Source of the DNA: a virus
Length of the DNA stretch: 24,257 nt
Direction: 5' to 3' (one strand)
IMG/VR virus record: IMGVR_UViG_3300023178_000262
Coordinates: 1-24,257 of that record
The notes under the pieces were generated by a model. That model searched no databases and had not been told where the DNA came from. It worked only from the letters and a program-made list of their open reading frames with translations. This document shows positions 1 to 17,797 of this stretch, one piece after another. A program made the position numbers and the translations under genes. Position 1 is the first letter of the stretch. The number at the start of each line of letters is the position of its first letter.

Positions 1-270
1 GCGTGTACTTGCTGTACTCTGTAGACCAGCACGTCCTGGTAAACTGTATTCCATTTGTATTAAATCTGTGCCTAAAATATCAGCAATAGATTCTTCATTA
101 TGATTTTCAATAGCAGTGTCTAAACGTAGTACATCACTAAGTGAAAGTTTATCTGTCATTTTACGGGCTTCGTCTTCTGTTACATCAACGTTAAACAGTT
201 CTTTTAACATTGCCTGTAATGCACGATGCATTTCATGTCCGTATTCTTCTAGTCCTTCTAGTAATCTCAT
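1..270 (-). CDS. Partial conserved hypothetical protein, runs off the left edge
   Basis: An open frame of 90 codons starts with ATG at 270 and is still open at base 1, so only the N-terminal part is visible. The start is supported by an ATGA overlap with the stop of the basic 92-residue gene upstream, which implies translational coupling. The visible protein is mildly acidic and mostly helical, beginning MRLLEGLEEYGHEMHRAL, with no signal peptide or membrane segment and no motif that I recognise. Its place at the end of the late operon suggests a late function, possibly virion-related. That is inference only. Confidence 0.7.
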   Translation of the reverse strand, partial: MRLLEGLEEYGHEMHRALQAMLKELFNVDVTEDEARKMTDKLSLSDVLRLDTAIENHNEESIADILGTDLIQMEYSLPGRAGLQSTASTR

Positions 271-545
271 TTGTTTAGCTGCCTTACCATTCTACTAGCT
301 GCTGAAAACTTTTTAGTTCTCTTGGCTTTACGTGCCATTTTAGCACCGTGCCTAGCTTTTGTTCTTTTTAAGGTGTAACGTTTTTTCAAATCAACAGGCG
401 CAAAACACTGACTAGGGTTACTAACTACTCTACCTTTACGATTGCCAACTGTGCAACGAAATTTACGAGCAATTTGTTTGCCTTTGCGAGCCCAGACCAT
501 CTTAGCCTCGGTTACTGCGCTTTCAAAAAGTTCTGTTAAATGCAT
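267..545 (-). CDS. Small very basic protein, possible packaged or DNA-binding protein
   Basis: The product is 92 residues, with Lys and Arg dominating from about residue 15 to the end. It has two cysteines, in RKFRCTVGNRKGRVV and NPSQCFAPVD. It resembles a small conserved protein of marine T4-like phages that I know only as hypothetical. The N-terminus (MHLTELFESAVTE then A) has the amphipathic-helix-plus-Glu look of T4 capsid-targeting sequences, which the head protease cuts after Leu/Ile-X-Glu; here the residue before the cut would be in VTE, so the fit is imperfect. The start is supported by AAGGAG seven bases upstream and a late promoter-like octamer at 571-564. A basic internal head protein or nucleic-acid binder is plausible but unproven. 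Confidence 0.75.
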   Translation of the reverse strand: MHLTELFESAVTEAKMVWARKGKQIARKFRCTVGNRKGRVVSNPSQCFAPVDLKKRYTLKRTKARHGAKMARKAKRTKKFSAASRMVRQLNK

Positions 546-563
546 AGAAAAACTCCTTAACGA

Positions 564-571
564 TATTTATC
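564..571 (-). promoter_or_regulatory. T4-like late promoter octamer before the basic 92-residue gene
   Basis: The minus strand reads GATAAATA, seven of eight matches to the T4 late promoter TATAAATA recognised by the phage sigma factor gp55. It lies about 18 bases upstream of the start codon, and a good AAGGAG ribosome site lies between. This is the ordinary, leadered arrangement, unlike several other late genes here. Confidence 0.55.
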
Positions 572-594
572 TTATTGATAAATTCTTCAAGGAG

Positions 595-843
595 TTAGGA
601 TAGTGCCAGTAGTACTGTCACTATTGTGCCAAGCAACCCACTGATAACAGTTCCAGCGGTTACGATAAGCATTTTATTTGTACTCTGATGCTGCTTGATA
701 TTTTCTTCTCTCATATCTCGCATATCGCCTGCTAGACGATCTAGACCATCAGAAAGTCTGTTTACTTTTTCTTCCAAAACTCTATACCTCTCTTGACAGA
801 GATCAACATGAGCTTCTAGGTTTGTTCTTTCCAGTTCGGACAT
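595..843 (-). CDS. Small coiled-coil protein with C-terminal membrane anchor (XhlA-like)
   Basis: The product is 82 residues. Residues about 3-57 form a charged, heptad-patterned helix (LEEKVNRLSDGLDRLAGDMRD), and residues about 58-81 form one hydrophobic membrane segment (MLIVTAGTVISGLLGTIVTV). This layout matches the XhlA/haemolysin-type phage accessory family, which acts beside holins in some phages. The match is by architecture only. No strong ribosome site precedes the ATG (AACGAGAA). The nearest clear promoter is the perfect TATAAATA about 118 bases upstream, which would give an unusually long leader. It could also be a virion or envelope-associated protein. Confidence 0.7.
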   Translation of the reverse strand: MSELERTNLEAHVDLCQERYRVLEEKVNRLSDGLDRLAGDMRDMREENIKQHQSTNKMLIVTAGTVISGLLGTIVTVLLALS

Positions 844-997
844 TTCTCGTTACCTACTTTTCCATCTCCGATCGTGAGATGCGTTAATAGTGAGTGTTGA
901 GCCTGTGTTTTGTGCCTAGTTAATGTTGCCTATTAAAAGGAATCAATCCTTCTACGTTAATATTTATATACTATATCGTGTAGATAATAAGACTACT
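844..997 (-). other. Intergenic late leader region
   Basis: This 154-base gap between the 141-residue and 82-residue genes holds a late promoter (968-961) and then about 110 bases of untranslated leader. The leader contains a short inverted repeat (AAGGA near 939, TCCTT near 949) and an abortive three-codon ATG frame (ATG GAA AAG TAG) just before the real start. No gene was found in it. Confidence 0.4.
961..968 (-). promoter_or_regulatory. T4-like late promoter, perfect TATAAATA
   Basis: The minus strand carries an exact TATAAATA preceded by TA. It is the only recognisable promoter for the 82-residue membrane protein gene. Its predicted start near 955 gives a leader of about 110 bases. Confidence 0.6.
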
Positions 998-1423
998 TTA
1001 TAATTTTACACTAGTGGTAAAGTAAAGATTGTCATTTAGTGCAAATGTCTTGCTTTTCATATCAGCAGTTTCTGTTAAGCCAGTACTAACTGCTACACCA
1101 TTACAATCTTGCTCTAAATGATGTGTCAAGTTTCCATTTGCTGCCCAAGCATTTGCATACTCAGTTTTAAACACCAATTTCCAAACTGTGTGCTTGCCAG
1201 TGTGATTAAATTTATAATCGCCCAGATCCTGATCTTCATACTTGCTGATGCCCAATACAATAGGCTGTGCTCTTAATCCAATCAACTGTAACAATACATT
1301 TAAGTTTTGTGCTTGATTATATCCTAACTTGTCAGGACTTCTTGGATCTGTGTTTTTACTGTCAGTGATATCAACAAGTGTGTATGCTGTATAATACACC
1401 AACCCATCTTCATCTTGTGTCAT
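998..1423 (-). CDS. Hypothetical protein, 141 residues
   Basis: The product begins MTQDEDGLVYYTAYTLVDITDS and is mainly beta-rich and soluble, with no transmembrane segment or catalytic motif that I recognise. It starts six bases after the stop of the 264-residue gene, without a ribosome site (AATAAAAA before ATG), so translation is probably coupled to the upstream gene. Its place in a late operon and its beta-rich, aromatic sequence (YNQAQNLNVLLQLIGLRAQPIVLG) would fit a virion component. That is inference. Confidence 0.75.
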   Translation of the reverse strand: MTQDEDGLVYYTAYTLVDITDSKNTDPRSPDKLGYNQAQNLNVLLQLIGLRAQPIVLGISKYEDQDLGDYKFNHTGKHTVWKLVFKTEYANAWAANGNLTHHLEQDCNGVAVSTGLTETADMKSKTFALNDNLYFTTSVKL

Positions 1424-1429
1424 TTTTTA

Positions 1430-2224
1430 TTATACTAATTTACGACCAATTGATCTACCAATTTGGAACCCAGCATAGCCTGCTGCGCCCAGTGCGGCTG
1501 CTTTTGCTATTGTTGCTGTTGTTTTACTTTTTGGTTGTTCTGCGTTGTTTGCGTTTCTAATTTCTAATTTTTTACTACGTGCTAGGTCAGATAAGAATCC
1601 AAATAGTTCACTTCTTCTAGCGTGTGTTCTATAAAACTGAAGTATACGTGTAACTACTAGTGCACGTTGTGTTTCATTTAGTTTTGGCCAGTCTTGTGCC
1701 AATCTTCTTACACTACGGTAACTACTATTTGTTACATATAACTTGCGTTCCATTTCTTGTAAAAACTGTCTTGCTTGACCTTGTGATAATTGATTGTATT
1801 TCATTTGGTTAAGATAGTTTTTAAGTCTTGTTTCTGGTACATTAATACGCTGTAGTAATGTATTGTCTGCACCGCCGCCTTTGATAGCGTCTGCGTCTTT
1901 GTTTGTAATAAAGTGCAGTGTCATATACAAGTCTGTACCGCTTTGTCTATAATTACGGAAGCCACCGTACATCATTGTTTTTGCAGCATACTTGATACTG
2001 ATTGGTGCATAATCAAATTCATTATAAAGTATCCAAAGTGTCATTAGATCAATAAATGCATGATCCGCAAGTTCTCTAGCACTAACGCCATATACATTTT
2101 GGCGAGTACGATATTGGCTACTTTCATTTAAGTCTTTAACGAAGCTGAACTTGTTGGAAGATTCTGGTACAGTGTGACCACCTTCCATCATTGCCCATTC
2201 CGTTGCTGTATATTTCTTGTCCAT
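1430..2224 (-). CDS. Hypothetical late protein with C-terminal hydrophobic helix, 264 residues
   Basis: The product is rich in Tyr, Gln and Arg over residues 1-215 and ends in an Ala/Gly-rich hydrophobic stretch (about 239-257, TIAKAAALGAAGYAGFQIG) followed by a basic tail. That could be a membrane anchor or a glycine-zipper helix. I do not recognise the family. The start ATG is preceded directly by an AATAAATA late-promoter-like octamer with five bases between and no Shine-Dalgarno sequence, so the mRNA is predicted to be leaderless. The octamer overlaps the stop codon of the ligase-like gene upstream. Confidence 0.75.
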   Translation of the reverse strand: MDKKYTATEWAMMEGGHTVPESSNKFSFVKDLNESSQYRTRQNVYGVSARELADHAFIDLMTLWILYNEFDYAPISIKYAAKTMMYGGFRNYRQSGTDLYMTLHFITNKDADAIKGGGADNTLLQRINVPETRLKNYLNQMKYNQLSQGQARQFLQEMERKLYVTNSSYRSVRRLAQDWPKLNETQRALVVTRILQFYRTHARRSELFGFLSDLARSKKLEIRNANNAEQPKSKTTATIAKAAALGAAGYAGFQIGRSIGRKLV

Positions 2225-2229
2225 ATTGA

Positions 2230-2237
2230 TATTTATT
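2230..2237 (-). promoter_or_regulatory. T4-like late promoter, leaderless arrangement
   Basis: The minus strand reads AATAAATA then TCAAT then ATG. In T4 the octamer spans -13 to -6, which puts +1 at the A of this start codon. Seven of eight bases match TATAAATA. Confidence 0.55.
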
Positions 2238-3366
2238 ACTTTACTTTATTAAGGTTTGCTGCACTAAAACCACTACGGTTAACTAGTTTAGCATCGCCTG
2301 TACCAATAACGTAGCCTTCGCCGCCACGCTCGCCGTCTGTATATGCTTCTACATCTGCTTCTTGACTGTCTAATTGTTTAATTACATCGTTCTTTGCTTG
2401 CATGATACTTGTAACAAGTGCAAACAAATTTTGGAATGCAACTGGATCACTACTAATATGTTCTTTAATACGTTCCTGTTTAACGCCACTTACTTTACTA
2501 CCAGTTAACCAGTCAACAAATTCATTTGCCAAGTTATCAAGGCTGCGTGTCTTTACTTTGTGGTTAACATAACTATAAAGAACATTTTTTAAATCTGTAA
2601 TTTTAAGTGCTCTTAGTGTATTGTCATCCAATAGTTTGTCAATACTGTTGCCACTTTTGTTTAGTAGCGACTCTGCTTTAGCAAAAATATTTTTGTCTAC
2701 TACTGGCGGCTGTTGTGCTGTAACTGGAGGCATTACAAGTAGTGCACCTTCATTTAGTGCATTTGCATCAGCTCTAGACTTGTTACCTTCTAAATCAAGA
2801 TACATGTGGATAACAACACCAGCTTTACTACGTGCAATACGCTTACCAATATCACTATCTGCTTTTACACGATATACTACTAGGTTAGGTTTAAAAACAA
2901 AGTCACCATCTTCTACTTGTGGTGTATCATAGTAAAGCAAATCGCCCCACATATAACCACGGAAGTCTTTTGGCACACTGCTTTCAAAAACACTCCAACT
3001 GTTGGCCATGTTTGCTGCAAATGCTTTACGGCTATCATCTGGTGCTTCTTTACCACGGCTTAATAACATATTTTGTAATGCTTTGGCACTTTTTACCTTA
3101 CCGTCATAACCCTTGGCACCAAAGCCACTTTTATCTGTAAGAATAAAATCACCACGTTCGTCTCTACCAAAAATAACTGCTGGTGAGCCGTCCCACTTTA
3201 CAGTGATTGCTTTGGGATTGGATTGAATGTTTTCCAGTGTGTCCAGTGCCTTACGTGCACCTGCACTGCCACTAAACAACACCATATCCTCCAAGTGTTG
3301 GATACGTGCTTCAGCCTTTTCCATTATGGGCTTTTTGTTTTCAGTAATTAACTCACGAAATTTCAT
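2236..3366 (-). CDS. Ligase-like covalent nucleotidyltransferase with capsid-targeting-like N-terminus
   Basis: The 376-residue product carries a set of signatures in the order expected of the DNA/RNA ligase and mRNA-capping superfamily: KWDG at 57-60 (motif I, Lys57 as candidate AMP- or GMP-accepting residue), WGDLL at 140-144 (motif III-like, Asp for the usual Glu), EGYV at 350-353 (motif IV) and Lys360 (motif V-like). About 200 residues, partly helical, are inserted between motifs III and IV. The N-terminus MKFRELITE then N resembles the T4 IPIII capsid-targeting sequence (MKTYQEFIAE then A) with a Leu/Ile-X-Glu head-protease site. I recall the family in T4-like phages as a domain of unknown function. 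The gene overlaps the nucleotidyltransferase gene upstream by 14 bases. Ligase activity is inferred; a degenerate binder of nucleotide or DNA remains possible. Confidence 0.75.
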   Translation of the reverse strand: MKFRELITENKKPIMEKAEARIQHLEDMVLFSGSAGARKALDTLENIQSNPKAITVKWDGSPAVIFGRDERGDFILTDKSGFGAKGYDGKVKSAKALQNMLLSRGKEAPDDSRKAFAANMANSWSVFESSVPKDFRGYMWGDLLYYDTPQVEDGDFVFKPNLVVYRVKADSDIGKRIARSKAGVVIHMYLDLEGNKSRADANALNEGALLVMPPVTAQQPPVVDKNIFAKAESLLNKSGNSIDKLLDDNTLRALKITDLKNVLYSYVNHKVKTRSLDNLANEFVDWLTGSKVSGVKQERIKEHISSDPVAFQNLFALVTSIMQAKNDVIKQLDSQEADVEAYTDGERGGEGYVIGTGDAKLVNRSGFSAANLNKVK

Positions 3367-4264
3367 CTGGCATACCCATGTCTATTACTTGTTTGTTGTT
3401 TTTAAAATCATTAATAATTGCAGACGCTAGTTCTTTACTGTAATTTTTCTTAACAGCGGCCAGTAATGTTTCAAAACTGTACATATCCGCAGGACTGTCC
3501 AATTTTAGTTTTTTGGCAATTTCTGCATCATCATAAAATGGTCCATCAATTACTTCGTTTTTGTTTTGCTTTGTATAACCTTCGCCATTCTTTTTAGGAA
3601 CAGGTGTACGTTTAACACGCACTAAACCATTTGAACTCCACATCCAACGTTCCATTTCCATTGGGCGTCCATCTTCAGTTTTCTCATCACTTGCAACTAC
3701 ATTTAATCTACCAGCAATGCTGGCAATCATAATGTTACGGAATGTACCTTTGTACTTGCTGTCTTTTTCATGTGGTGAGTGGTAATATGTTTTCATCCAC
3801 TTAGGGTTACCAGGCATAAAGTCTACTTGAACGAACCCAGTACGTCCTTCAGGAACACCACGGTTTTCGCCAGTACGTGGATCAATCATCTCACGGTCAG
3901 GATCATAATTTTGAATTTTAATTTTTGTAATAAACACGCTTGTTTTTGAATAGTAAGAAATTAGTGGATGATTTTTTAATTTTTCGCCAAACTCTTCAAG
4001 TTTCTCTGGCGGAATATCAATTGCAACATCAATATCGCCACTAAATTGCTTCTTGCCAACACTACCTAGTGCTTGGCTATATAAGTCAACACCTAAATCT
4101 TTTGATAATGGTTCTAGTGTAGGTTTAATTTCGTCAATATGAATTGGACCTACACCTGGTGCACTTCCGCCTTCACGAAGATCGCGGCCACGATGACGTG
4201 GCTTGCGTTGTCCTCTATATTTTTTGTTAAGGGGATTAGTTCCCAGAATGTCCTTTACTTTCAT
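3353..4264 (-). CDS. Pol-beta-like (MNT-type) nucleotidyltransferase
   Basis: The 303-residue product shows the pattern of the polymerase-beta nucleotidyltransferase fold: GS at 67-68, then SGDIDVAID with Asp77 and Asp79 as the metal-binding pair, and VQVDFM with Asp148 as the third acidic residue. Residues 10-33 are a basic tail (KKYRGQRKPRHRGRD), suited to nucleic-acid contact. Members of this fold add nucleotides to RNA, proteins or drugs; the substrate here is unknown. The start lies within the end of the 87-residue gene (29-base overlap), and the stop overlaps the ligase-like gene, so all three are probably made together. The pairing with a ligase-like protein suggests end repair or modification of nucleic acid, which is inference. 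Confidence 0.75.
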   Translation of the reverse strand: MKVKDILGTNPLNKKYRGQRKPRHRGRDLREGGSAPGVGPIHIDEIKPTLEPLSKDLGVDLYSQALGSVGKKQFSGDIDVAIDIPPEKLEEFGEKLKNHPLISYYSKTSVFITKIKIQNYDPDREMIDPRTGENRGVPEGRTGFVQVDFMPGNPKWMKTYYHSPHEKDSKYKGTFRNIMIASIAGRLNVVASDEKTEDGRPMEMERWMWSSNGLVRVKRTPVPKKNGEGYTKQNKNEVIDGPFYDDAEIAKKLKLDSPADMYSFETLLAAVKKNYSKELASAIINDFKNNKQVIDMGMPDEIS

Positions 4265-4499
4265 TCGCTTTTTTAATGCCTCTTTTAAACTTCATTTCAT
4301 CCTGGGTTCTGATACTGTTAATTAAACGTTTGACAAGGTCCTGACTGGTTTGCTCATCATACGTTTCCGTAATAAGTTTAATCAAGTTACTTGCACTGGT
4401 AATGACATTACTAGCGGTGTTTTCAACAATATATTTACGATCATGAGTGTCGCCAATGCTGTTGATCTCTTCAAGAATAGATCTAGTACGTCTTTTCAT
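4236..4499 (-). CDS. Small helical protein, first gene of the nucleotidyltransferase operon
   Basis: The product is 87 residues, beginning MKRRTRSILEEINSIGDTHD and ending in a basic tail. It is predicted to be almost wholly helical, with regular hydrophobic spacing (ASNLIKLITETYDEQTSQDLVKRLI split across two helices). I recognise it as a type of small conserved protein seen in marine T4-like phages but know no function. An AAGGG ribosome site lies about nine bases upstream, and a late-promoter-like GCTAAATA lies at 4532-4525. It overlaps the nucleotidyltransferase gene by 29 bases and may be a partner of it. Confidence 0.7.
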   Translation of the reverse strand: MKRRTRSILEEINSIGDTHDRKYIVENTASNVITSASNLIKLITETYDEQTSQDLVKRLINSIRTQDEMKFKRGIKKANESKGHSGN

Positions 4500-4524
4500 A
4501 GCATATCAACCCTTTTGTTAGTAG

Positions 4525-4532
4525 TATTTAGC
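4525..4532 (-). promoter_or_regulatory. Possible late promoter of the nucleotidyltransferase operon
   Basis: The minus strand reads GCTAAATA followed by CTAC, six of eight matches to TATAAATA. It sits about 25 bases before the start codon, with an AAGGG ribosome site between. It is weaker than the other late octamers. Confidence 0.35.
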
Positions 4533-4589
4533 GAATTTAGATAATTATTAGTGAAGGGGAATAAAACTGCAAAAAATAAAAAACTGTAC

Positions 4590-4661
4590 ATTATTGATAG
4601 ACCCTGTGATGGATAAGAAGTGACGTTGACACAGGAGCACTGTGTAAGTGTAGACAATAAT
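4590..4661 (-). ncRNA. Structured 3' UTR of the helicase operon with alternative hairpins
   Basis: Seen from the minus strand, an outer stem of seven pairs joins ATTATTG (4661-4655) to CAATAAT (4596-4590). Inside it, CTGTG (4634-4630) can pair either with CACAG (4644-4640), closing a five-base loop, or with CACAG (4608-4604), closing a 21-base loop; the two pairings exclude each other. U-rich DNA (TTTTTTATTTTTT) follows at 4583-4571. It may be a terminator or attenuator between the early helicase operon and the late operon. The sequence inside shares a 19-base motif with the 3' UTR at 13433-13451. Confidence 0.4.
4619..4637. repeat. Copy 1 of a 19-base dispersed motif
   Basis: The plus strand reads AGTGACGTTGACACAGGAG and matches the sequence at 13433-13451 in 17 of 19 positions. 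Both copies lie just downstream of the stop codon of a minus-strand gene, inside an inverted repeat. Confidence 0.6.
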
Positions 4662-4709
4662 TACTATATAGCATGTTTTAATCCTGTAGTAAAGAGTGAT
4701 GAAGAAATC

Positions 4710-6101
4710 TTATTCTGCACGTTTAAGAATACTTCGTAGCTTATCAGTGTTATTGACGGCCGTCTCAACCACACTGTTTGTCTGAGATACAATTCCAGCT
4801 TGGCTGGATTCACTTTGTTTCTTGAGCTTGTCATAAATGGCACTAGTTCCGCTATTCATATCCTCTAATTCATCATCATCCAAATCAGTAATACGCAAAC
4901 TTTCAATATTAAATGCCAAGTCTAGTTTTTGGCCAACACCGCTACTACTACGTGTTTTCATAAACTGTATTTGCGCTCTACCACGTTCACGCATTGCACG
5001 ACTTGTAAAGATACCTACAACATTATCAGCAGTGTTAATCTTACTAATACCACCACTGATATGACTGTGATCAAATTCTACTTCATCAACACTAGCACGG
5101 TTCAACTGCGATGCTGTAACAAACAAAATATTCTGCTCAATTGCAAAGTTGCGTAGTTCTTCACTTACATATTTGTCTTTAATAAACAAGTCGCTTGCAC
5201 TGATCTTTTTACCTGCTGGAGACATCAAGTCCAAGTAGTCCACGCACATTGCATCAACTGTTACACCATGTTGGATCTGATACTCTTTTAAATATGCTTT
5301 CAAGTCATTTACGTTACATCCATTTGGCAATTGTACAACTTGTAGTTTACCTGCTTTTTTACTTGTCATACGCAGTTTAAGATCTACATCTTCCATATTC
5401 TTAAACAAGTCGCGAGTACTATATCCTGTTAGCATACTGTCCATACGCATACTACACAGCTCTTCACTAAGCTCGAGACTTACATAAACTACGTTCATAC
5501 CAGCCAGTACCCAGTTTAGTGCGATGTTCTGCATAAACAAACTTTTACCAGATCCACTACCACCTGCAAAGATGTTTAGTTCGCCACGGTTAAATCCGCC
5601 ATACAAAAACTTGTCAAAGGTTGTCCAACCAGTGCTAGTACCGCCTTTTTGCTCTTTAATAATTTGTAGTCTTGCTGCTGGATCACTCCAGTAGTCTGTA
5701 CCCAAGTCTTTCGCAAGTCCAATTTGTACAGCATCTTTAATCATCTTTTCAACACTGCCAAACTCGCCTTTTTCCAGTTTGTCAGTACTTGCTAAGATTG
5801 CTTTTTCTAAACCCTTGTGTCTACAAAACTTTTCAAACTCATCTAAAAACCAATCTTGATGTGCTTGTGTGTTGTCACGCAAATCCTGTAGCTCTACATT
5901 ACCCTTGACTTTCATCTGTTCAAGTGTAGGCATGTCGCCATATTTTTCAACATGCTCTTGCATAAACCGCACTGCATTACGTAGACTGCGATCAAAATAA
6001 TCTGCATTTAAGATAGCGTTGCAGCGAACAAACAATTCTCTATCCGCTTGCAAAAACTCCAGATACAGTTTTTGTAATTCTTCGTTATAATCTTCTGCCA
6101 T
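4710..6101 (-). CDS. 41: Replicative DNA helicase, T4 gp41-like (DnaB family)
   Basis: The 463-residue product is the hexameric 5'-3' helicase that unwinds DNA at the phage fork together with the gp61 primase. Residues 1-130 form the helical N-terminal region. The RecA-like core follows, with Walker A AGGSGSGKS at 179-187, Walker B MCVDYLDLM with Asp288, and a TASQLNRAS motif near 333 that matches the DnaB-type sensor segment. The length is close to that of T4 gp41 (475). The start overlaps the stop of the 95-residue gene in TAATG, so translation is coupled within a primase-small protein-helicase operon. The Gln/Ser-rich C-terminal tail is typical of the family in being variable. Confidence 0.92.
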   Translation of the reverse strand: MAEDYNEELQKLYLEFLQADRELFVRCNAILNADYFDRSLRNAVRFMQEHVEKYGDMPTLEQMKVKGNVELQDLRDNTQAHQDWFLDEFEKFCRHKGLEKAILASTDKLEKGEFGSVEKMIKDAVQIGLAKDLGTDYWSDPAARLQIIKEQKGGTSTGWTTFDKFLYGGFNRGELNIFAGGSGSGKSLFMQNIALNWVLAGMNVVYVSLELSEELCSMRMDSMLTGYSTRDLFKNMEDVDLKLRMTSKKAGKLQVVQLPNGCNVNDLKAYLKEYQIQHGVTVDAMCVDYLDLMSPAGKKISASDLFIKDKYVSEELRNFAIEQNILFVTASQLNRASVDEVEFDHSHISGGISKINTADNVVGIFTSRAMRERGRAQIQFMKTRSSSGVGQKLDLAFNIESLRITDLDDDELEDMNSGTSAIYDKLKKQSESSQAGIVSQTNSVVETAVNNTDKLRSILKRAE

Positions 6102-6388
6102 TAAATGACTTCACCTTTTAATTTTGCTTCTATATATTCATCATTTGTGTAATATTTTTCACCTAAAAAGCGTTCCGTTGTTGCTAAATCAACATATGTA
6201 TATTCTATTATATACGATTTTAGCCAAACAATCGAGCCACTTTTCATCTTTGTTGGTACCCAAGCAAATTTATTTTCCAAACGTTTCTTTATTTCTGCAT
6301 GTGCTGATATGTGCCTCAAATATTCTACCTCAAATAATGCTTCTTTTGCGGCGTGTGCATCATACCGTGGTGTATAACTTCTTCTCAT
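6101..6388 (-). CDS. Hypothetical protein between primase and helicase, 95 residues
   Basis: The product begins MRRSYTPRYDAHAAKEALFE and is basic at the N-terminus, with mixed helix and strand; no membrane segment or catalytic motif is visible. It overlaps the primase stop by four bases (ATGA) and the helicase start by one (TAATG), so the three are made as a unit. A role linked to the primosome would fit the position, but T4 gp59-like helicase-loader features are not visible and the protein is much shorter than gp59. Function unknown. Confidence 0.75.
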   Translation of the reverse strand: MRRSYTPRYDAHAAKEALFEVEYLRHISAHAEIKKRLENKFAWVPTKMKSGSIVWLKSYIIEYTYVDLATTERFLGEKYYTNDEYIEAKLKGEVI

Positions 6389-7398
6389 TTACAGTAACCT
6401 TTTGCCATAACTTCTGCCTTGGTATTATTATCCACTGCAAACTTAATTATACTTTTTATAGTAAACAGTTTTCCATATGCTTGTACTGCATCATTTGCAT
6501 CTTTAACCCCATCGTCCCAGGGCGGAAAACTAACCATCCAGTTACGTTTAATAGCCTGCCTAACCAAACGCATACTGGCTTTATCTGCATCAGGCAATAG
6601 TATAATACGCTTGCCTAATTTTTCAATAATTTTAGATTGGTCTAAACTCATGCTATTACTGCCAATAGCAACTCCACCAATACTTAGCGCATCTAACTGT
6701 CCTTCTGTCACAATAACAAAACGGTTTTCAGCATGTTGGTTATCTAATCCATAAACAAAGTTTTTAGGTTGTTGTACATAGTACTTGGGTGTTTCTTTAT
6801 TTGGCACATCGCCAATCCAACGTGCAGTATACCCTACAACTTTTCCTTTGTAATAAAACGGAAGTATAACACGACTTTTAAAATGACTAAATGTACTGTA
6901 TTTCCAGTCTGGATAATCCAGTAAACTTCTATCACTTAAAAACTCACATGCACTGACAAACTTGGGCAGTTCTTTTTCACTAAGTTCAGCAGTGTGTAAA
7001 TCTTGTGTTTGAGCTGGCAGTGGTATTTCTGGCCAGTCAATTTTAACTTCTTTATCTTCCGTTTTCTTTTTAATAAGCAGTTCAGCAGTATCTCGCTCAC
7101 GCATAAGTTCAATCTGCAAACGATGTATTTCACTACTATCTGCACCAAACACACCGTACAAACGCTTTAAACGCCCGCTGAGTTGCTTGCCTTCACTCCA
7201 GCCTGTACTATAGCCACAGTTAAAGCAGTTGTATCTGAACTTGTCTTCTTCAAAATAAAAACCACCACGCTTTTTTGTATCTGGTCTGCTTTGTCCATTC
7301 TGTACACACATAGGACAATTACCACTGGTCCAGCCTGTGCCAGTAGTTTTCCAATTAACGGGGATCAGATTTTTAGTGAACTCAAGGACCAAATGCAT
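6385..7398 (-). CDS. 61: DNA primase, T4 gp61-like
   Basis: The 337-residue product makes RNA primers for lagging-strand synthesis in complex with the gp41 helicase. A zinc-binding N-terminal region has CPMC (Cys28, Cys31) and CFNC (Cys58, Cys61). The TOPRIM catalytic domain shows VTEGQLDAL with Glu232 and LLPDADKAS with Asp270 and Asp272. The length matches T4 gp61 (342). The start codon follows a consensus early promoter so closely that the mRNA is predicted to be leaderless; GGTGTT lies before the ATG but is too close to act as a usual ribosome site. The promoter overlaps the stop codon of the upstream structural gene. Confidence 0.92.
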   Translation of the reverse strand: MHLVLEFTKNLIPVNWKTTGTGWTSGNCPMCVQNGQSRPDTKKRGGFYFEEDKFRYNCFNCGYSTGWSEGKQLSGRLKRLYGVFGADSSEIHRLQIELMRERDTAELLIKKKTEDKEVKIDWPEIPLPAQTQDLHTAELSEKELPKFVSACEFLSDRSLLDYPDWKYSTFSHFKSRVILPFYYKGKVVGYTARWIGDVPNKETPKYYVQQPKNFVYGLDNQHAENRFVIVTEGQLDALSIGGVAIGSNSMSLDQSKIIEKLGKRIILLPDADKASMRLVRQAIKRNWMVSFPPWDDGVKDANDAVQAYGKLFTIKSIIKFAVDNNTKAEVMAKGYCK

Positions 7399-7404
7399 AA
7401 CACC

Positions 7405-7433
7405 ATATTAACGTCTATAGTGTATTTTGTCAA
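7405..7433 (-). promoter_or_regulatory. Early sigma70-type promoter of the primase-helicase operon, leaderless
   Basis: The minus strand has TTGACA (7433-7428), a 17-base spacer and TAATAT (7410-7405), then exactly six bases before the ATG at 7398. With a -10 box at -12 to -7, +1 is the A of the start codon. The promoter lies within the last codons and stop of the structural gene. Confidence 0.75.
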
Positions 7434-14499: not shown

Positions 14500-14527
14500 A
14501 AGATAGCACATCTAGAAGATAAGTCAA
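14500..14527 (-). promoter_or_regulatory. Probable early promoter of the AAA+ ATPase gene
   Basis: The minus strand has TTGACT (14527-14522), a 16-base spacer and TATCTT (14505-14500). It is weaker than the TTGACA promoters nearby. It gives an ordinary leader of about 30 bases with CAGGAG before the ATG. Confidence 0.5.
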
Positions 14528-14536
14528 CCTTTTTTT

Positions 14537-15235
14537 TCACTTTTTTTCTATTTTTACACGATTTAATACAGTTTCTTTACAGTTGCTAAACTTGCTGATG
14601 CTTTGCTCTTTTACAAAACCAGTAACACGCATGCTTTTGCCTACAATAAGATTACTGATATCTGGATCCTTGCTCCAGAAGAACTTAATCAAGTTCTGAT
14701 CAGATTCAACAGCCGTTACCAAATGGATGCCGTATTTTGCGATATATTTCACATCTTTAATAAACAATGAGAACGCACCACGGCTACCTACTTTACCAAC
14801 ATACTCGCTAGACTGTCGCATGTCTTCATAAAAGTCATCCATGTCGTCACGCTGTTTCTGAATACGCATACTGTTAGGCAAACTCGCCAGTACGCTAATG
14901 CCGTAGTTGTCTACTTCTGTTTTATTAAGAATATTACCCACTGTATCTTCAAAACCATTAAAGTTGCCAGTGAGCTTTTTCATAACAATAACACTGTCAA
15001 AATATGTTTTAAGCTCTTCAGCCTTTTCCATATGTTTGCTAGTTACTGTAACATCAATGTCTTCTGCCTCTTTAACATCATTAATAATGTAACGGATAGC
15101 AGTCTTGTTATCAAAGACATTGCATTTATTTTCATAATCGTAAAACCCATGGCCGCTTTTGATAAAGCCCTGAGCCTCGTCTACTGCAATCGATGTTGCT
15201 AGTACTTCCATAATTTCATATGATTTACGTGCCAT
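14537..15235 (-). CDS. Hypothetical protein with probable C-terminal OB fold
   Basis: The 232-residue product has a mixed N-terminal part and a C-terminal segment (about 165-231) that reads like an OB-fold strand series: YGIHLVTAVESD, LIKFFWSKD, GKSMRVTGFVKEQ and CKETVLNRVKI. The pattern 'G..VRVTGxVK...K.T.LNRVK' recurs in phage proteins that bind single-stranded nucleic acid. FSLFIKDVKYIAKYG precedes it. The gene has its own consensus promoter, whose -10 box overlaps the stop of the 49-residue gene, and a GAGGA ribosome site. A role in DNA replication or repair is inferred from fold and location; I cannot name the family. Confidence 0.78.
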   Translation of the reverse strand: MARKSYEIMEVLATSIAVDEAQGFIKSGHGFYDYENKCNVFDNKTAIRYIINDVKEAEDIDVTVTSKHMEKAEELKTYFDSVIVMKKLTGNFNGFEDTVGNILNKTEVDNYGISVLASLPNSMRIQKQRDDMDDFYEDMRQSSEYVGKVGSRGAFSLFIKDVKYIAKYGIHLVTAVESDQNLIKFFWSKDPDISNLIVGKSMRVTGFVKEQSISKFSNCKETVLNRVKIEKK

Positions 15236-15262
15236 GGTGTCCTCTGTGTCTGTTACAATGTT

Positions 15263-15291
15263 ATATTACGATTTATCTGAATCTTTGTCAA
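15263..15291 (-). promoter_or_regulatory. Early sigma70-type promoter of the OB-fold gene
   Basis: The minus strand has TTGACA (15291-15286), a 17-base spacer and TAATAT (15268-15263). It lies inside the last codons of the 49-residue gene, as the primase promoter lies inside the end of its upstream gene. The leader is about 20 bases and has GAGGA before the ATG. Confidence 0.72.
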
Positions 15292-15415
15292 TGGCTTTTG
15301 TTGTGATAAAGTAAGTTTTTTTATCAGCGATTGCACTGTGTGCCAAGCCGTCAGCATCACGTTTATGAGTGCATACTGCTACAATAGACTTATTTTCATC
15401 ATATACATAATACAT
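15266..15415 (-). CDS. Very small protein, 49 residues
   Basis: The frame starts with ATG directly after the TAA of the 35-residue gene and ends in TAA at 15268-15266. The protein begins MYYVYDENKSIVAVCTHKRD and has the strand-helix-strand look of tiny conserved phage proteins; ADGLAHSAI and KKTYFITTKAI are its middle and end. It is supported by tight packing and coding-like codon choice. The function is unknown. Confidence 0.6.
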   Translation of the reverse strand: MYYVYDENKSIVAVCTHKRDADGLAHSAIADKKTYFITTKAIDKDSDKS

Positions 15416-15523
15416 TTATCCACGTCCTTTCAACAGTGCATGAATAAGTTTTGCTTCTTTGCCGCTAATAGGCTTGCGGCTAGTTGCGATTGCACGATTA
15501 ACCGATTCTTTATTGTAAGCCAT
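15416..15523 (-). CDS. Very small basic protein, 35 residues
   Basis: The frame starts in a TAATG overlap with the 63-residue gene. The protein, MAYNKESVNRAIATSRKPIS followed by a KEAKLIHALLKGRG tail, looks like a short helix-turn-helix-like basic peptide that I recall as recurring in phages and plasmids next to proteins like its neighbours. It is supported by the perfect coupling on both sides (TAATG, then TAAATG). Function unknown. Confidence 0.62.
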   Translation of the reverse strand: MAYNKESVNRAIATSRKPISGKEAKLIHALLKGRG

Positions 15524-17221: not shown

Positions 17222-17250
17222 ATGATTTATTGGGTTTTATTATAAGTATT

Positions 17251-17345
17251 TTTGTAACGGAGAGGTTTTGCAGACAACAAAATCAACATTATGCAACGTA
17301 AGTTAGCTATTTAATTCTAGGCCTGGCCACACCCTCCGTTACAAA
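17251..17345. repeat. 12-base inverted repeat enclosing 71 bases at the end of the uvsY-like gene
   Basis: TTTGTAACGGAG (17251-17262) is exactly complementary to CTCCGTTACAAA (17334-17345). The right arm contains the stop codon of the uvsY-like gene. The enclosed 71 bases have no convincing gene. A stem with a long loop at the 3' end of the uvsX-uvsY transcript could stabilise or terminate it. It was examined for tRNA and tmRNA features; none were convincing. Confidence 0.5.
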
Positions 17346-17797
17346 CTTACATCTTCAAGTCCAGCAGCTCTTAACTTTACGATGTTATTCAGCTGAAACT
17401 GTTTGGTATCCAGTGCTTTGGTAATACCAATAAATTTATTTCTTAACAGTGCAAACTCATTAATAAGGTGCTGTTGGTCCACAACATCAGGATCACCGTC
17501 TACATATTTTTCTGCATCACGGCTACTTAATGCTTTGTTGTAGTTTTCAAGAAACTTGCGAAACTTGGCGCTTCTAATCTTGCGCATTTCAATATTAAGG
17601 TATTCTAAAATACTCTCAATTTCCTGCAACTGGCTAAATCTGTTCTCAACTACGCCTGGCATATCTCTACTATGTTTCTCAATATTACCACGTAGTGAAA
17701 TATCCTTACGTGCTTCAGTTAATTCAGTTTCATAGTAGTCAATGGCTGGTACGATGTTGGCTAAATCTTGTTTAATGCGAGTTAACCAATTAGTCAT
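17339..17797 (-). CDS. uvsY: UvsY-like recombination mediator
   Basis: I place the start at the ATG at 17797 (152 residues), six bases after the upstream stop; a TTG at 17809 would overlap that gene and has no better ribosome site. The protein is helical with coiled-coil character, and its C-terminal third (YVDGDPDVVDQQHLINEF, then GITKALDTKQFQLNNIVKLR) follows the pattern of T4 UvsY, where an acidic YxDxD segment precedes a helix ending 'aLxxRxFxIKxIxxxR'. UvsY helps UvsX displace gp32 from single-stranded DNA. The uvsX-80aa-uvsY order supports the call. The N-terminal part is too divergent to be decisive. Confidence 0.6.
   Translation of the reverse strand: MTNWLTRIKQDLANIVPAIDYYETELTEARKDISLRGNIEKHSRDMPGVVENRFSQLQEIESILEYLNIEMRKIRSAKFRKFLENYNKALSSRDAEKYVDGDPDVVDQQHLINEFALLRNKFIGITKALDTKQFQLNNIVKLRAAGLEDVSL

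Follow-up and report, generated by a model that had tools for sequence, protein, structure and literature searches.

A capsid-targeting-like leader on the ligase-like protein of a marine T4-related phage and its polymerase-like neighbour

The ligase-like protein encoded in the stretch of viral DNA analysed here (the window, 24,257 nucleotides) starts with a short peptide of the kind that directs phage T4 proteins into the head, and we think it probable that the protein is packaged by way of this propeptide and cut by the phage's protease. Directly upstream lies the gene for a polymerase-like protein with a leader of its own. What the pair does is a more tentative matter; gap repair of incoming phage DNA is quite possibly its job. 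The phage is marine and T4-related, and it may carry this leader-bearing pair of repair enzymes to its next host cell.

Positions 2236..3366, minus strand: DUF6267 protein, 376 aa, ATP-dependent-ligase-like (Pfam PF19782, E 5.6e-36, residues 22-375).
Positions 3337..3366, minus strand: its predicted capsid-targeting leader, MKFRELITE plus Asn10, the first ten codons of the ORF, with the cut expected after Glu9.

The 376-aa ORF (3366..2236, minus strand) begins MKFRELITENKKPI, and its longer N-terminal stretch reads MKFRELITENKKPIMEKAEARIQHLED. The sequence-only reading had likened MKFRELITE/N (slashes mark known or predicted cuts) to the T4 IPIII leader. That comparison was correct, since in the T4 record MKTYQEFIAEA opens both IPIII and IPII. 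When the IPIII leader was dissected, targeting was traced mainly to residues 4 and 7 and processing to residues 8 and 10, and gp21 cleaves after L/I-x-E (as reported in the accessible part of PMC9026906). With a one-residue gap, F3, L6, I7 and E9 of the window's leader occupy these determinant positions: F3 and L6 are the hydrophobic residues at T4 positions 4 and 7 and match the strict motif given below, and ITE9/N is the L/I-x-E that closes the peptide ahead of the mature part. In relatives with 71-78% identity the leader is retained as M[KR]FRELITE[NT]KKP. In the AlphaFold model residues 1-20 have a pLDDT below 50, with the predicted cut after residue 9 inside this disordered stretch, and the body is confident (mean pLDDT 88). 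A disordered leader on a confident body, as in our AlphaFold models, favours a detachable leader.

For counting, we used a strict motif derived from T4, M.{1,4}[FYLIVM]..[FYLIM][IL].E, and compared N-termini with the internal methionines of the same ORFs. Within the window it occurs at 2 of 35 ORF starts (the ligase-like protein and a 162-aa protein) and at 1 of 140 internal methionines (Fisher p 0.10), an excess that is not beyond chance and cannot prove a signal in the window alone. T4 has it at 9 of 257 N-termini, including those of ipII, ipIII, gene 2 and gene 24, against 3 of 863 internal methionines; the gene 24 product is a gp21 substrate. The counts were 11 of 545 against 7 of 1901 in marine isolates (Melnitz, S-SZBM1 and parts of S-CREM2; p 4.1e-4) and 8 of 494 against 4 of 2296 in four window-related IMG/VR contigs (p 2.3e-4), where three of the eight matches (two neck-protein-like, one 123-aa) are probably accidental. 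The strict motif picks out few proteins and is enriched at N-termini. Since the statistics of the window alone reached p 0.10, we shifted the argument to protein families.

The best 80 of 580 IMG/VR matches to DUF6267 gave 58 unique leaders, nine of them shorter than 10 aa and 49 of at least 10 aa, which were grouped to 27 clusters. Among these best 80 relatives, [LI]xE falls in the last 16 residues before the conserved core in 25 of the 27 leader clusters. Shuffled leaders averaged 4.3 such clusters and never exceeded 11, so that 0 of 5000 shuffles reached 25. This result overstates the certainty, because the boundary windows were picked after inspection and related phages do not count as independent cases. 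Leaders run from 5 to more than 40 residues and the [LI]xE site stays whatever the length. Short ones include MKFTEFLKE/G, MKSFRTHLNE/S, MLSFKKYLSE/A, MTTSFTSFITE/S and MINYQDYLTE/S; the long basic ones are exemplified by MKVTDIVGSHKRKPRNLRNIRLKHKGLYTPTAQDLNE/N; and the DUF6267 protein of Methylophilales phage Melnitz bears MLTLINFSKYITE/D. Leaderless homologues begin at the core (MAKNTHLEHLED).

Two clusters are exceptions: MFSFKGFITK, with Lys for Glu, and L099, with hydrophobic-x-E only. MFSFKGFITK and close variants that keep the hydrophobic positions without the Glu were seen in L077, L081, L088, L090, L092, L098 and L100. A T4 protein with Asp at leader position 10 is packaged and left uncut, according to the accessible part of PMC9026906, and by analogy proteins of the MFSFKGFITK type may be packaged without cutting. 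In five sources (L034, L035, G023, G027 and G030) the polymerase-like protein is absent and the ligase-like protein has a polymerase-type basic leader, so the leader seems to outlive the enzyme, being retained or exchanged as a module, a second observation in favour of a detachable leader.

Could the leader be an ordinary N-terminal segment, kept by the overlap with the upstream gene or for folding or translation? The first 14 nt of the ligase-like gene do overlap the end of the upstream gene, and the leaderless homologues and the non-significant excess within the window also fit such a reading. However, codons 5-9 (ELITE) lie outside the overlap except for two bases, and across six sequences they show synonymous changes only, with four of the five codons varying. 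Leaders differ greatly in length and sequence yet retain [LI]xE, AlphaFold models the leader as disordered, and unrelated neighbours show the same design. We therefore regard an ordinary segment as unlikely and continue with a capsid-targeting propeptide.

The neighbouring genes concerned are as follows.

Positions 3353..4264, minus strand: 303-aa polymerase-like protein of the family X (Pol beta/lambda) kind, whose gene lies immediately upstream of the ligase-like gene and overlaps it by 14 nt (model pLDDT 86.9).
Positions 4172..4264, minus strand: predicted leader of this polymerase-like protein, long and basic, covering residues 1-31 and ending DLRE/GG (residues 1-32 at pLDDT below 50).
Positions 1430..2224, minus strand: 264-aa protein, function not assigned, with a predicted leader at residues 1-34 (2123-2224) ending VKDLNE/S.
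Positions 267..545, minus strand: basic 92-aa protein, with the leader MHLTELFESAVTE/A (507-545), hydrophobic-x-E and not strict [LI]xE.
Positions 23288..23776, minus strand: 162-aa protein, adjoining the large terminase gene, with the leader MYRNIKDYLTE/S (23744-23776), a strict motif match.
Positions 4236..4499, minus strand: 87-aa neighbour, phrog_11854 "virion structural protein", with the conserved N-terminus MKKRTRSIL[ED]E.

The sequence-only reading had overlooked the polymerase-like neighbour, which bears a separate leader and in some relatives forms a fusion with the ligase-like protein. Its predicted cut, after residue 31, falls within the low-confidence residues of the model. Relatives end their leaders, again of 5 to more than 40 residues, in LKE/GG, LNE/GG, IKE/GG, ITE/GG, INE/GG or LFE/GG. 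The 264-aa protein has relatives with the short leader MDFIKDLHE/A. [LI]xE is present in 9 of 10 leader clusters of the 303-aa family (shuffle mean 0.56) and in 13 of 13 of the 264-aa family (shuffle mean 1.1), and 0 of 5000 shuffles reach either count, although the reservations about the shuffles made above apply here too, and in both families the leader sites adjoin conserved sequence, which structural constraint might equally explain.

Looser versions of the leader had been proposed for the 92-aa and 162-aa proteins. The description suits the 92-aa protein, whose leader fits only as hydrophobic-x-E; in its family that pattern is found in 8 of 8 clusters and strict [LI]xE in 3 of 8, a count reached by 160 of 5000 shuffles. 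It does not suit the 162-aa protein, which satisfies the strict motif (I5, Y8, L9, E11). Homologues of the latter begin MYRKLSDILNE/S, MKKFTEYLKE/A, MKRFTEYLNE/G and MSKTFKDYLQE/A, and many partial-match homologues have different N-termini. We rejected the 87-aa protein as a leader protein, since the N-terminal sequence is itself conserved and either D or E stands at P1. Seven other conserved families of the region have few or no such N-termini, with [LI]xE in 1 of 12 clusters for p141, 0 of 8 for p82, 2 of 19 for gp41, 0 of 10 for UvsX, 0 of 5 for UvsW, 1 of 1 for gp32 and 0 of 1 for p166.

Similar N-termini were seen outside the window. A small family near the terminase (G023 27017-27529, G027 41130-41627, G030 42592-43080, G006 70563-71180) has the strict leader MKSFTEYLTE/S and variants, eight of them unique in 21 records. 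A family of 105-110 aa (G001 17249-17581, G023 1754-2071) begins MRFKQLVE/S or MRFSEIVVE/D.

A leader of this type would need a protease, and the window's own contig, which stops short of the head genes, has neither an S77 protease nor a capsid gene. We tried G006, a more distant contig of 152 kb, as a source of head genes and rejected it, as it gave no match to S77, gp23, portal or HK97-type capsid. Relatives of the terminase were used instead, and they led to 17 larger contigs of the same clade.

Positions 21680..23233, minus strand: large terminase, used to find clade relatives with head genes.

DUF6267 is present in 11 of the 17, among them every one of the ten that are 49.7 kb or longer. 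Three have an S77 (gp21-type) protease (G023, E 2.9e-27; G027, 6.5e-26; G033, 1.4e-27). The major capsid protein of G023 and G027 is 387 aa long and carries KNYLTE/S (G023) or KSYLSE/A (G027) at residue 41, a site that aligns with the T4 gp23 cut site FLTE65/A. The same capsid site reads FLSE/A in Melnitz, ILTE/A in S-SZBM1 and LLTE/A in S-CREM2. The YLTE/S of the clade capsid is the same sequence type as the KDYLTE/S on the window's 162-aa protein. The leader, its conserved cut-site pattern and the clade's protease and capsid site are all read from sequence, and the enzyme folds described below from models. We also noted that G001, an IMG/VR contig of 36 kb, shares 99.96% identity with window positions 1-15474 and extends 20.8 kb past window position 1.

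Of the proposal that the ligase-like protein carries a capsid-targeting peptide and is packaged, the first part holds up well, through the conservation of the leader and its cut-site pattern; for packaging, the support comes by analogy with leader-bearing neighbours. Of the three checks suggested with the sequence-only reading, two came out in its favour to the extent that sequence allows: the alignment of homologous N-termini and the comparison with cleavage sites of head proteins.

The ligase-like protein is a member of phrog_455 (unknown function), and PF19782 is a family without an assigned function; we found no literature naming DUF6267. At the similarity used in the search, the family was present in 158 phage records. 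Among 39 aligned DUF6267 sequences, K57-W-D59-G60, E350-G351-x-V353, K360 and R364 are invariant. The ATP-dependent nucleic acid ligase superfamily has motif I, KxDG, together with motifs IV and V, and we take the invariant residues to follow the order of these three. The PDB sequence search detected no similarity of the ligase-like protein to solved ligases. With the ligase profile it returned only eS8 ribosomal proteins (E 0.001, profile positions 255-377), a likely compositional match that we disregarded. In a fold search with the DUF6267 model, RNA ligases lead (Z 6.3) and DNA ligase IV follows at 5.4-5.7, tied within 1; the first Foldseek matches are tRNA ligases at a weak E of 0.023. Taken from these fold matches, the ligase assignment is a prediction, suggestive and not firm.

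By its model, the 303-aa protein folds like a family X DNA polymerase. Foldseek matches it to Pol beta (E 4.5e-4, prob 1.00), and VIA scores the match to Pol beta at Z 10.1 (rmsd 4.5 over 181) and that to Pol lambda at Z 10.0 (rmsd 3.3 over 165). G76-D77-I-D79 and D148 are conserved in the family, and D77, D79 and D148, catalytic acidic residues that we assigned by motif and not by superposition, are invariant in 15 sequences. The Pfam search found no family for the window's protein and a weak Polbeta match (E 0.082) in one of the 15 members, and the PDB sequence search gave no match. Polymerase-like and DUF6267 proteins share a locus in 19 of the 88 sources with a DUF6267 ORF, a count in which one contig appears twice (G006 is also L073). 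They are fused in L031, L032, L033, L045 and L073, and in L031-L033 the linker holds LSE or LGE plus LRE sites.

For the substrate, the main rival to DNA is RNA, because Pol-beta-type RlaP enzymes accompany phage RNA ligases (as described in the accessible part of PMC7824862). The proteins would still be packaged and cleaved, with the pair repairing RNA such as tRNA cut by host defence nucleases, a task that has been proposed for RlaP, and the lead of RNA ligases and tRNA ligases among the structural matches of DUF6267 points the same way. Against this, the top rows for the polymerase model are all filled by DNA polymerases beta and lambda and PolX of bacteria, and comparison with the nucleotidyltransferase T4 nrdC.11 by hhalign, run against the single T4 sequence, gave no match, so we set nrdC.11 aside as a relative. 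We consider RNA repair a somewhat unlikely job for the pair. As a separate observation, the window encodes an AAA-type protein at 13463-14464, and the G006 homologue is 34.6% identical to the product of T4 54343-55332 (nrdC.10).

With DNA as the preferred substrate, we infer packaging, cutting, injection and substrate as follows. The nine-residue leader would bring the ligase-like protein to the prohead core, where the gp21-type S77 protease would cut after Glu9 and free the enzyme inside the head, and the freed enzyme would leave with the DNA at infection. The polymerase-like protein would enter with its own leader and be cut after Glu31; since it carries this leader, the two enzymes would travel together. 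Some relatives encode both as a single chain whose linker holds [LI]xE sites. Most probably the pair would serve to fill and seal gaps and nicks of the incoming phage DNA before phage genes are expressed. It is possible, and we offer it as speculation, that these phage heads hold a finished polymerase for gap filling together with its ligase, to restore the genome before transcription, in some lineages as one chain that the prohead protease trims and separates, so that head maturation would double as enzyme activation. If true, nicks, gaps and sunlight damage in the incoming genome would be mended before it is transcribed.

Once packaged, the enzymes might instead act within the head or belong to the scaffold, perhaps sealing nicks in DNA during packaging, with no role after injection. 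Core proteins of the T4 head such as gp22 and gp67 undergo cleavage and for the most part disappear (PMC9026906), which fits such a fate, but the catalytic motifs are invariant in both enzymes, and we think a head-only role very unlikely.

Enzymes with similar leaders are found in virions of cyanophages. In S-CREM2, the non-structural proteins detected by mass spectrometry include a SAM hydrolase, a kinase, a 78-aa protein and a cytidylyltransferase (accessible part of PMC10665884), with the N-termini MKDFDSFLEE, MKRFDAFLTE, MKDLHSFLTE and MKNFSSFLTE/A, respectively. Our test took in 148 S-CREM2 proteins, covering 24 of the 52 detected, and found the strict motif in 4 of these 24 and in 2 of the 124 others (p 0.0066). 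In the same part of PMC10665884, the authors thought carry-over also possible for enzymes in cyanophage virions. A Cas9-like protein reported in S-CREM2 virions (gp12; L109 7704-10313, minus strand) has the capsid-targeting-like stretch LRFASFMAE/A at about residues 17-25 and not at the very N-terminus.

In S-SZBM1, the virion proteins listed in the accessible part of PMC9146016 include the cytidylyltransferase S-SZBM1_140, whose leader is MRFRQFIIE/A. Motif and detection were unassociated among the S-SZBM1 proteins covered there (1 of 30 detected against 3 of 188 others, p 0.45). The leaderless DUF6267 protein of this phage, S-SZBM1_141, is absent from those 30 proteins. Two adjacent small proteins near the terminase, S-SZBM1_191 and S-SZBM1_192, begin MKSFKSFLSE/S and MKTFKQYITE/A, and the available list does not include them. 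For S-SM1, the authors state that the virion contains the cytidylyltransferase T4-GC190 (accessible part of PMC3037559), and its gene reads MKKFSAFLNE/A. A leader-bearing cytidylyltransferase is therefore published, in the parts of these sources available, as detected by mass spectrometry in virions of three phages, S-SM1, S-SZBM1 and S-CREM2. The gene adjoins DUF6267 in S-SM1 and S-SZBM1; the DUF6267 homologues of S-SM1 and S-PM2 are leaderless, that of S-PM2 being fused to a cytidylyltransferase-type domain. A kindred cytidylyltransferase-like protein (GRFQPMHSGH) is encoded at G023 85949-86557, with the leader MRISDIITE/S. Neither DUF6267 nor a polymerase-like protein of the 303-aa type is among the proteins in the available parts of the published virion proteomes that we compared. 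When the literature was searched for leaders of the capsid-targeting kind in marine T4-like phages, cyanophages included, the papers returned were on T4 or other phages and none reported such leaders.

DUF6267 would in this way gain a proposed function and a delivery route. A simple N-terminal signature would allow virion-delivered enzymes of marine T4-like phages to be listed from genomes, and the leader offers an explanation for the enzymes reported in cyanophage virions.

Among the closest known systems is that of T4 IPI-IPIII and Alt, whose targeting sequences are cut by gp21. There too we find a short N-terminal propeptide with the same hydrophobic register and an L/I-x-E site, and the window's clade has an S77 protease and a gp23-family capsid protein. 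The T4 cargo is small basic proteins or an ADP-ribosyltransferase, whereas here it would be a polymerase and ligase pair, sometimes fused, with leaders of very variable length, some strongly basic, and known from sequence alone. The cyanophage cytidylyltransferase T4-GC190 is likewise leader-bearing and a neighbour of DUF6267, but it is a different enzyme, and DUF6267 in those phages is leaderless or, in S-PM2, fused without a leader. Compared with PF19782 as it was known, the leader and the ligase motifs are newly described here. Repair pairs of a family X polymerase and an ATP-dependent ligase, such as Pol beta or lambda with a ligase, show the same pairing, including fusion, and the folds predicted here for each partner (for the ligase-like protein tentatively so), and African swine fever virus encodes PolX and a ligase. 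The phage pair differs from these in its predicted head-entry leaders and in that its activity is predicted, with no sequence similarity to solved polymerases or ligases detected. What would be new is the cargo, together with its fused form and the range of leader lengths, whereas T4 already provides the precedent for the route of delivery.
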